Of a DNA stretch of 35,008 nt, positions 18,432-29,821 are shown in pieces (the first letter of the stretch is position 1; every line of letters starts with the position of its first letter). The position numbers and the translations under genes were made by a program. Source of the stretch: Pseudomonadales bacterium (GTDB taxonomy: Bacteria > Pseudomonadota > Gammaproteobacteria > Pseudomonadales > Azotimanducaceae); the NCBI GenBank assembly GCA_030728785.1, contig JANQYP010000007.1, positions 4,786 to 39,793 of the forward strand. The letters run 5' to 3'. The notes under the pieces are model-generated. The model was not told the DNA's origin. It made no database searches and saw only the letters and a list, made by a program, of their open reading frames with translations.

Positions 18432-18466
18432 GGCGCCGTCGGCTCTATACCTTCTTCACTCTCTCC

Positions 18467-18514
18467 ACGTTCTATACATGACACGTTCTATACATGACAC
18501 CTTCTATACTTGGC
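18467..18514 (-). repeat. 16-bp tandem repeat, three copies, spanning the recG stop
   Basis: On the plus strand ACGTTCTATACATGAC occurs at 18467-18482 and 18483-18498 (identical). A diverged copy, ACCTTCTATACTTGGC, is at 18499-18514. The third copy contains the recG stop codon (18504-18506) and its last codons. A decayed unit may lie near 18442-18450. It fills most of the gap between the two convergent genes. Confidence 0.88.
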
Positions 18515-20649: not shown

Positions 20650-20705
20650 CTGCTGCAGGTCAGCTGTTGCAGGTTAACTGCTGCAGGTTAACTACCGCAG
20701 GTCAA
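20650..20705 (-). repeat. 14-bp tandem repeat, four copies, ending in the ridA stop codon
   Basis: The units on the plus strand are CTGCTGCAGGTCAG (20650), CTGTTGCAGGTTAA (20664), CTGCTGCAGGTTAA (20678) and CTACCGCAGGTCAA (20692-20705). The last encodes the ridA C terminus VDLR plus TAG. In the outer copies that TAG has become CAG. The array occupies about half of the ridA-recG gap. Confidence 0.88.
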
Positions 20706-21075
20706 CAATGGCATCAATCTCAATCTTTACACCTCGGGGCAAGGCGCTCACCTCCACCACCGCCCTGGCTGGGTAGGGTGCCTGAAGCAGATTTTGCATA
20801 TAAGTGTTAACGCGGCCAAAGTGATTCAGGTCCGTGAGGTAGATATTCAACTTGATAGCCTGGTTCAGTGTTGTTCCGGCTGCCTGGCAGATACCCTCAA
20901 GGTTAGTGAATACCTGAGTGATTTGTTCATCGATAGTCTCTGCCACTAGCTCCATGGTCTCCGGTACCAGGGGAATCTGGCCACTGATGTACAGGCAGCC
21001 ATGGGCGGCGACAGCTTGTGAATAGATGCCAATAGCGGCAGGGGCAGCGCTGGTGTTGATAAACTCTCGGGCCAT
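20692..21075 (-). CDS. ridA: RidA family reactive enamine/imine deaminase
   Basis: RidA hydrolyses reactive enamine/imine intermediates released by PLP enzymes such as threonine dehydratase. The length of 127 residues is typical of the trimeric YjgF/YER057c/UK114 fold. Visible signatures are YSQAV (residues 18-22), LYISGQIP (28-35), the active-site arginine R104 in YPARAVVEVSALPRG, and E119 in KIEIDA. Its ATG lies 2 bp after the spoT stop, so it is almost certainly cotranslated with spoT, as in Pseudomonas. The stop codon is part of a 14-bp tandem repeat. Confidence 0.96.
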   Translation of the reverse strand: MAREFINTSAAPAAIGIYSQAVAAHGCLYISGQIPLVPETMELVAETIDEQITQVFTNLEGICQAAGTTLNQAIKLNIYLTDLNHFGRVNTYMQNLLQAPYPARAVVEVSALPRGVKIEIDAIVDLR

Positions 21076-28077: not shown

Positions 28078-28608
28078 TCAGGGATGCGTTCTAACTTTGA
28101 CGCGGTTGTTGGTATCGCGACTGGCGCGGATCAGCACATCACCGGTCGTTGTCGGTGGTGACTTTGCCGACCGGTCATAGAGTACGATGTTAACCGTCGC
28201 AGCAAGATTCAGGCAGCCAGTGGTTGGGATATAGACCACAGCATCCGCGTGGTCGATGAGTTGCTGGCTGATAGTGCCATCCTCTGGCCCAAAAATATAA
28301 AATGCCGCGTGTGGGTGCTGGAAATCTGCGAGGGAAATCGCGCCTTCCACCAATTCAATGCAGACGATTTTGCAGTCGGCTGGTGCCACGTCAAGCAGGT
28401 CGCTGGCAGCGTTGAGGGGAATTCGGCTGCTGATATCTTTGGTATCCGTGTTAAAGCGTGCCGCACGCTCAAAGCGTGTGCCGGTATAAAACACCCCGGC
28501 GGCGCCAAAACAGCCGGCAGCACGCATCACAGAGCCTATGTTGGCCGGGCTCTTGGGGTTCACCAGGCCAATGACGGCAGCGGTTCTGGTTTTGGCTGGG
28601 TTACTCAA
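28078..28608 (-). CDS. TrmH/SpoU-family RNA 2'-O-methyltransferase
   Basis: This is a SPOUT-class methyltransferase expected to methylate a ribose 2'-OH in tRNA or rRNA using S-adenosylmethionine. It has 176 residues, a single domain. The three SpoU motifs are NPKSPANIGSVMRAAG (17-32), FGPEDG (106-111) and IPTTGCLNLAATVNI (127-141), which form the trefoil knot. The exact RNA target cannot be told. The start appears to be TTG at 28608 with only a weak upstream GAGA. This start lies at the end of the 14-bp repeat ladder that fills the gap from yicC, so the repeat also makes up its ribosome-binding region. Confidence 0.88.
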   Translation of the reverse strand: MSNPAKTRTAAVIGLVNPKSPANIGSVMRAAGCFGAAGVFYTGTRFERAARFNTDTKDISSRIPLNAASDLLDVAPADCKIVCIELVEGAISLADFQHPHAAFYIFGPEDGTISQQLIDHADAVVYIPTTGCLNLAATVNIVLYDRSAKSPPTTTGDVLIRASRDTNNRVKVRTHP

Positions 28609-28716
28609 AGGGCAATTCTCAAAAGCAGTTAATTAAAAACCAGTTATTCAAAAGCAATCATTCAAAAGCAATCATTCAATAGAAATTGTTCAACAGATAC
28701 TATTCAATGTTTTGAA
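28604..28716 (-). repeat. 14-bp repeat ladder filling the gap between yicC and the SpoU methyltransferase gene
   Basis: On the plus strand TTCAA recurs at 28647, 28661, 28675, 28689 and 28703, exactly 14 bp apart. Weaker units continue at about 28633, 28618 and 28604. Two units are identical (TTCAAAAGCAATCA at 28647-28660 and 28661-28674). The unit at 28689-28702 ends in the yicC stop codon, the one at 28703-28716 is coding, and the last degenerate unit overlaps the TTG start of the next gene. Confidence 0.8.
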
Positions 28717-29554
28717 TCTGTTCTCGCATCTGCTCGATGATAACCTTGAGTTCCACCGCCTGGATCGAGGTATTGGCGGCAACGGCCTTGGACGACAGGG
28801 TGTTGGCCTCGCGGTTCAGTTCCTGCATCAGGAAATCCAGGCGCCGGCCCACGGCGCCTGGTGTGTCCAGTGTCGACTTTACTTCTGCGATGTGAGTGTC
28901 GAGACGGTCGAGCTCCTCAGCGATATCGGATTTCTGCGCCAGATAGACCAGCTCCTGCTCCAGGCGGTTGCTGTCGACATCAATCTGCAATTCGTTGAGG
29001 CGCTCATCCAGGCGTGCCTTCTGGCGAGCGCTAATGATTGGTGCCTCAACACGCACGGCGTTTGTAAGGATCTGCAGTTCGGCAAGCTTGTCGAAAATGA
29101 TGCTGCGCAGTTCCTCGCCTTCTCTGGTGCGCATGGCAATAAGATCTGCCAGAGTGGCTTCGAACAAGTGAGTAGCCTGGGCAAAAATATCTTCCTGTAG
29201 CACAGTGCTGGTCTGCGTCACGCCGGGAAAACGCAGCAGTTCGAGTGGGCTCACGGGCGGGCTGGTGCCCATGATACGACTGACCTGGTCCAGGGCGTTG
29301 CGCAATTGGTGCAGAGCCTGTTCATTGACCTGCAGCCTGGCACTATCGTCAGTGTCTGGGTTGAGTCGCAGCAGACAATCTACCTTGCCTCTGAAGATAG
29401 TCTGCTTCAGCAGTTGACGCAATTCGCCCTCAATGGCGCGAAACTGATCCGGCATTTTGAAGCTGTGGTCCAGATAACGGTGGTTGACGGATCTGATCTC
29501 CCAGGAGAGAGTGTTGGCCTCGCGCTGGGCAAAGGCAGTCATGCTGTTGGTCAT
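28700..29554 (-). CDS. yicC: YicC family endoribonuclease
   Basis: YicC proteins are endoribonucleases implicated in small-RNA turnover in E. coli. The product has 284 residues (E. coli 287). The N terminus SMTAFAQRE followed by WEIRSVNHRYLD is the family hallmark. The C terminus (FLMQELNREANTLSSKA and MREQIQNIE) matches the DUF1732 region. I chose ATG at 29554, with AGGAAA upstream. The frame stays open upstream to 29737 across a 12-bp repeat that would encode LIAS units, but these are not part of the family. It is divergent from rph, as in Pseudomonas, but here gmk is not next to it. Confidence 0.95.
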   Translation of the reverse strand: MTNSMTAFAQREANTLSWEIRSVNHRYLDHSFKMPDQFRAIEGELRQLLKQTIFRGKVDCLLRLNPDTDDSARLQVNEQALHQLRNALDQVSRIMGTSPPVSPLELLRFPGVTQTSTVLQEDIFAQATHLFEATLADLIAMRTREGEELRSIIFDKLAELQILTNAVRVEAPIISARQKARLDERLNELQIDVDSNRLEQELVYLAQKSDIAEELDRLDTHIAEVKSTLDTPGAVGRRLDFLMQELNREANTLSSKAVAANTSIQAVELKVIIEQMREQIQNIE

Positions 29555-29594: not shown

Positions 29595-29678
29595 AGCGAC
29601 GCTATCAATGACGCAATCAATGACGCAATCAATGACGCAATCAATGACGCAATCAATGACGCAATCAGCACAGCTATC
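29595..29678 (+). repeat. 12-bp tandem array, five perfect plus two degenerate units, between yicC and rph
   Basis: AATGACGCAATC repeats perfectly at 29607, 29619, 29631, 29643 and 29655 (to 29666). Degenerate units flank it: AGCGACGCTATC (29595-29606) and AGCACAGCTATC (29667-29678). It lies in the divergent spacer, 41 bp from the yicC ATG and about 100 bp before the rph -10 box. Five identical copies suggest recent slippage, so copy number may vary between strains. Confidence 0.93.
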
Positions 29679-29782: not shown

Positions 29783-29821
29783 GGACTTCCATCGTTACTC
29801 TTAATGTTAGAAGGAAAATAC

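Follow-up and report, generated by a model that had tools for sequence, protein, structure and literature searches.

The yicC–methyltransferase junction

The window, that is, the whole stretch of 35,008 nucleotides that was analysed, carries yicC on its minus strand (28700–29554), which encodes a YicC/YloC family endoribonuclease (TIGR00255, PF03755, PF08340; 273.9 bits against TIGR00255, over the cut-off) and ends in the stop codon TAG at 28702–28700. Downstream on the same strand lies the gene for a SpoU-family RNA methyltransferase of 176 aa (28078–28608; PF00588, 73.6 bits). It begins with TTG at 28608–28606, and every NCBIfam equivalog that it touched scored below its cut-off. All 91 bases between the two genes belong to a ladder of eight 14-bp units that occupies 28595–28707 of the minus (coding) strand. 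Read as the two genes are transcribed, the ladder extends from the yicC stop codon to the methyltransferase TTG. Its full coverage of the spacer agrees with an earlier note on this DNA that had described the spacer as made wholly of the repeat.

Unit 1, TTGAATAGTATCTG (28694–28707), contains the yicC stop. It is followed by unit 2, TTGAACAATTTCTA (28680–28693), by two identical copies of TTGAATGATTGCTT as units 3 and 4 (28652–28679), by unit 5, TTGAATAACTGGTT (28638–28651), with one additional base at 28637, and by unit 6, TTAATTAACTGCTT (28623–28636). Unit 7, TTGAGAATTGCCCT (28609–28622), is degraded, and unit 8, TTGAGTAACCCAGC (28595–28608), which opens with the methyltransferase start codon, is the most degraded. 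Identity to the eight-unit consensus is 10, 11, 13, 13, 12, 11, 8 and 7 of 14 for units 1 to 8, so that the proposed gradient from a uniform centre to degenerate flanks is borne out by identical units 3 and 4 and a consensus match falling to 7 of 14 at the edge. Exact 14-bp steps had also been proposed. These hold for the five TTCAA sites on the plus strand (28647, 28661, 28675, 28689 and 28703) but not for the full set of units, whose starts on the minus strand (28707, 28693, 28679, 28665, 28651, 28636, 28622 and 28608) are separated by six steps of 14 and one of 15, from 28651 to 28636.

The probability that this A+T-rich spacer acquired its periodicity by chance is practically nil. Its base composition would favour such an effect, but the lag-14 self-match of 28604–28716 (0.677) was reached by none of 20,000 dinucleotide-preserving shuffles, neither at lag 14 itself nor anywhere between lags 5 and 30. 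Tandem Repeats Finder (TRF) recovers the ladder independently (period 14, 4.3 copies, score 71). Taken alone, the ladder is an ordinary minisatellite, a tandem array with a unit in the range of about 10–60 bp and head-to-tail copies beyond chance. It is the host genome that is unusual.

The junction is known solely from this genome. yicC was present in 53 of 58 genomes searched. The methyltransferase is rare in the family: a search of 150 genomes with a threshold of E 1e-25 recovered it in two, the present genome and the congener G005, and a 31-residue piece of it lies at a contig end of a second congener, G004. In both congeners the methyltransferase is downstream of a different gene, YkgJ-like by eye. 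Among ten yicC flanks from relatives (L003–L012), the gene 3' of yicC was by eye gmk in six (L006, L008–L012), a transporter in two (L003, L004) and something else in L007; the sequence of L005 stops 59 bases past yicC. Neither these ten flanks nor the methyltransferase search of the 150 family genomes yielded a second case of the junction. The last yicC codons, ATTGAATAG, also terminate yicC in L006 and L011, and ladder unit 1 is therefore the native end of that gene. From the sequence, this native end may have been the seed of the ladder.

Other arrays are found in the window. The divergent spacer between yicC and rph holds a 12-bp array detected by TRF (29598–29667, plus strand; unit GACGCAATCAAT, 5.8 copies) that, at 98% match, is cleaner than the ladder; it was not seen in the yicC–rph spacer of L003–L005. 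Four more short arrays have unrelated units: 995–1030, 1337–1374 (intergenic, plus strand, 14-bp unit, 2.7 copies), 18466–18509 (at a gene border, plus strand, 16-bp unit, 2.8 copies) and 20650–20706. The word TGATTGC was noted by eye, on the minus strand, in both the ladder and the 12-bp array beyond yicC. A shared origin of these two arrays was considered on that observation only, and discarded as weak.

Array density in the genome and its relatives

The genome is a metagenome-derived draft of 2.55 Mb, 84.91% complete. Arrays were counted with TRF (score 50, period 10–17) and genes were called with a simple custom caller in a sample made of 39 stretches plus the window, 756,060 bases in all, of which 98,624 are intergenic. 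This sample contains 138 arrays, 109 of them non-coding, equivalent to 110 per 100 kb of intergenic DNA. Eleven array pairs are single arrays split by one scaffold gap, and collapsing them gives a total of 127. A smaller sample (19 stretches plus the window, 363 kb) gave 74 TRF arrays. In 381 gap-free intergenic segments, 68 real arrays were found in 60 segments, against 0 or 1 array in each of ten shuffled sets.

Bacterial intergenic DNA is commonly viewed as compact and pruned. Here, by a measure that also detects degraded ladders, a ladder signal is present in nearly one in four spacers of at least 80 bp (72 of 320; shuffled expectation 0.3), compared to 3 of 160 in 20 genomes of the family and order.

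The most frequent period of the non-coding arrays is 14 (36 of 109), at least three copies are present in 53 of them, and 43 are 100% matched. Base composition of the 109 units, counted on the plus strand regardless of gene direction, is balanced (A 391, T 381, G 357, C 352). No k-mer of 5–8 was enriched across the units relative to random intergenic pieces, and units without a common motif indicate that the arrays are not a dispersed family. Yeast-like microsatellites were ruled out as an account of the arrays because the units are of 10–17 bp. Arrays lean toward gene 3' ends (27 versus 18.5 expected, sd 3.2) and, less so, toward 5' ends (18 versus 13.0, sd 2.9). The 3' lean may come from gene-caller errors or may be a genuine bias.

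Same-genus controls gave 0 arrays in 20.0 kb (G001), 5 in 99.5 kb (G002), 1 in 56.3 kb (G003), 12 in 191.0 kb (G004) and 2 in 115.5 kb (G005). The 20 family and order genomes together yielded 9 arrays in 400.0 kb, 6 of them non-coding in 90.5 kb of intergenic DNA, and a single genome from another genus of the family, G029, supplied 4 of the 9. When 140 kb of G029 were analysed, 30 arrays were found, 23 of them non-coding, at 103 per 100 kb of intergenic DNA versus 110 in the present genome (the G029 loci are L172 and L215–L220). Four more genomes of the G029 genus had 0 arrays in 13 kb, too short a sample to be informative. The yicC loci of other gammaproteobacteria had 9 arrays of period 10–17 in 514 kb (L034–L111), and no arrays were present in the 95 kb of L007–L031. 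High array density is a patchy trait. This genome and G029, of an unrelated genus, set against their array-poor relatives, provide a natural contrast for asking what determines how often short tandem duplications arise in bacteria. In the open-licence literature of PubMed Central we found no paper that describes such a trait, either for this lineage or for bacteria generally, which is not proof of absence.

Origin of the arrays

The arrays probably originate de novo where replication slippage duplicates local sequence in tandem, and they are tolerated between genes. The ladder is one of them and would not have been built to regulate yicC and the methyltransferase. According to this model, the native yicC end ATTGAATAG would have been a short stretch recopied downstream through out-of-register replication. 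Later slippage would have enlarged the ladder centre or held it uniform, while point mutation degraded its edges, up to the methyltransferase start codon. The methyltransferase itself would have arrived behind yicC in this lineage. Other arrays across the genome would arise likewise, each from its own local sequence, and survive where they are harmless, either intergenic or in frame inside genes. The slippage history advanced in the earlier note gains from three sides: the centre-to-edge pattern of the ladder, the similar arrays across the sampled genome, and a pair of congeners that differ in copy number. In the latter, G004 carries the 15-mer AACCTATCGAGCACC twice behind a TetR-like gene and G005 has one diverged copy; their sequences differ there by 16 bases in length, and the remaining 1.6-kb alignment is gap-free at 90% identity.

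Terminal identity points in the same direction. At least three extra bases of it were found in 11 of 25 clean two-copy arrays, when about 1.4 would be expected by chance; this test excluded 35 arrays that had a flanking copy. The excess fits slippage between short matches as the inferred mechanism, although eroded third copies may contribute in part. Periods divisible by three make up 26 of 29 arrays within genes and 37 of 109 outside (Fisher p 8e-8), the latter near the expected one third, and the frame kept in genic arrays implies that selection removes arrays that break it. Plain neutrality does not predict the lean of arrays to gene 3' (less so 5') ends.

Could the ladder instead be a regulatory or phase-variable element, whose unit number alters spacing or structure ahead of the TTG and so tunes translation of the methyltransferase? 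The last unit does provide the start codon, the units occupy the entire region before it, and repeats of a fixed word, TAACTGA, stand in Beggiatoaceae before start codons without a canonical ribosome-binding site, as described in an extract of PMC4679880. We nevertheless regard a regulatory role as unlikely. The ladder contains no promoter-like or terminator-like site (the sole promoter-like site of the scan is elsewhere, at 29804–29775), it matches no Rfam family, and its predicted RNA fold is not unusual (z 0.31), so these scans gave no support for a role in methyltransferase expression. In addition, 20 of 96 placed non-coding arrays sit between convergent gene ends, where no start codon is served, and only two central units of the ladder are identical, which means that there is no clean hypervariable tract at present. 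Viewed in its wider context, the ladder is most likely a neutral by-product, and we infer neutrality for both yicC and the methyltransferase. Because the ladder includes the annotated TTG, its growth shaped that start region. A single repeat can thus supply both start-codon and 3'-end sequence without evidence of function.

It is still less probable that the arrays belong to a mobile family of repeats scattered through the genome, or that they are the footprints of transposition with target duplications of 11–16 bp. The narrow spread of periods around the mode of 14 and the footprint-like appearance of two-copy arrays would agree with such an origin. However, the units share no motif, a single excision cannot produce the three or more copies present in about half of the non-coding arrays, terminal identity exceeds what footprints predict, and the 121-bp stretch of the ladder has no match in the genome other than itself. 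Array pairs about 100 bp apart, which were considered as a mobile element, proved to be arrays cut by 100-N scaffold gaps. These gaps bear also on whether the arrays are artefacts of a metagenome-derived assembly, since 26 of the 53 have an array no more than 15 bp away (4.6 for random intergenic positions) and some of them split arrays. That association is expected if arrays vary or exceed what reads can resolve. We consider an assembly origin very improbable, because assemblers are blind to the reading frame that genic arrays keep, most arrays (including the ladder) are away from gaps, and the better assembled G029 equals this genome in array density. One repeat often flanks both sides of a gap, as in L118, L126, L128 and L194.

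Known systems and candidate causes

The tandem repeats of archaeal Borg elements are the closest known system. In an extract of PMC9879509, Borg arrays are described as scattered, intergenic and genic, with nearly all units unique and inferred to come from local sequence; unit lengths are divisible by three in genes and in only 14–38% of cases outside, arrays terminate contigs, and partial repeats flank them. Against that description, the present arrays are alike in their locus-specific units, with no enriched k-mer of 5–8, and in their divisibility by three (26/29 in genes, 37/109 outside). Also shared are the scattered placement between and within genes, the position at contig ends and the partial repeats alongside. 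The same extract describes Borg arrays as mostly perfect, A-biased, and carried on extrachromosomal elements of Methanoperedens. The arrays shown here differ in these respects: copies are imperfect (a 100% match is reached by only 43 of 109 non-coding arrays, and the ladder itself is imperfect), A is not enriched, and the host is a gammaproteobacterial genome with units of 10–17 bp. Since neither perfection nor A enrichment was found, we describe the arrays as working like Borg repeats and do not class them with those repeats.

Two other comparisons can be made. The TAACTGA direct repeats of Beggiatoaceae are, in the extract of PMC4679880, numerous and intergenic, some of them just before starts without the usual ribosome-binding site; they are one fixed 7-bp word, whereas the arrays of this genome have individual units and differ in period. 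Prokaryotic satellites, minisatellites and VNTR loci are head-to-tail arrays ascribed to replication anomalies in the available parts of PMC6749651 and PMC2884548. The survey in the former, which defines satellites in its own way, gives group medians of 0–3 per Mb, a figure not directly comparable to the 138 arrays counted here by TRF in 0.76 Mb.

A broader and more tentative proposal, to which we give somewhat less than even weight, is that some lineages of the family carry a heritable, patchy trait that generates tandem duplications of 11–16 bp from local sequence. New minisatellites would thereby lengthen the spacers, including the one behind yicC, whose last unit is now a start codon. If true, this heritable duplication trait would give bacterial chromosomes an equivalent of the Borg repeats.

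Several candidate causes of such a trait were discarded. Small genome size is not a correlate: G029 is array-rich at 2.1 Mb, but six other genomes of 1.9–2.8 Mb (G032, G019, G015, G026, G048, G050) had at most one non-coding array apiece in 20–100 kb. No Ku was detected in this genome or in five congeners, which speaks against Ku-type end joining. All tested repair genes were found in the genome, namely mutS1, recJ, xseA, the C-terminal ExoI domain and sbcD. The presence of the first four, in a draft 84.91% complete, means that their loss is not the cause. As for sbcD, it scored over the cut-off in this genome (L239, G000:C69:3492-4229), in none of the five congeners and in only 8 of 150 family genomes, and SbcCD was rejected as a general cause because of this low count and because the array-rich G029 has merely a weak match below the cut-off.
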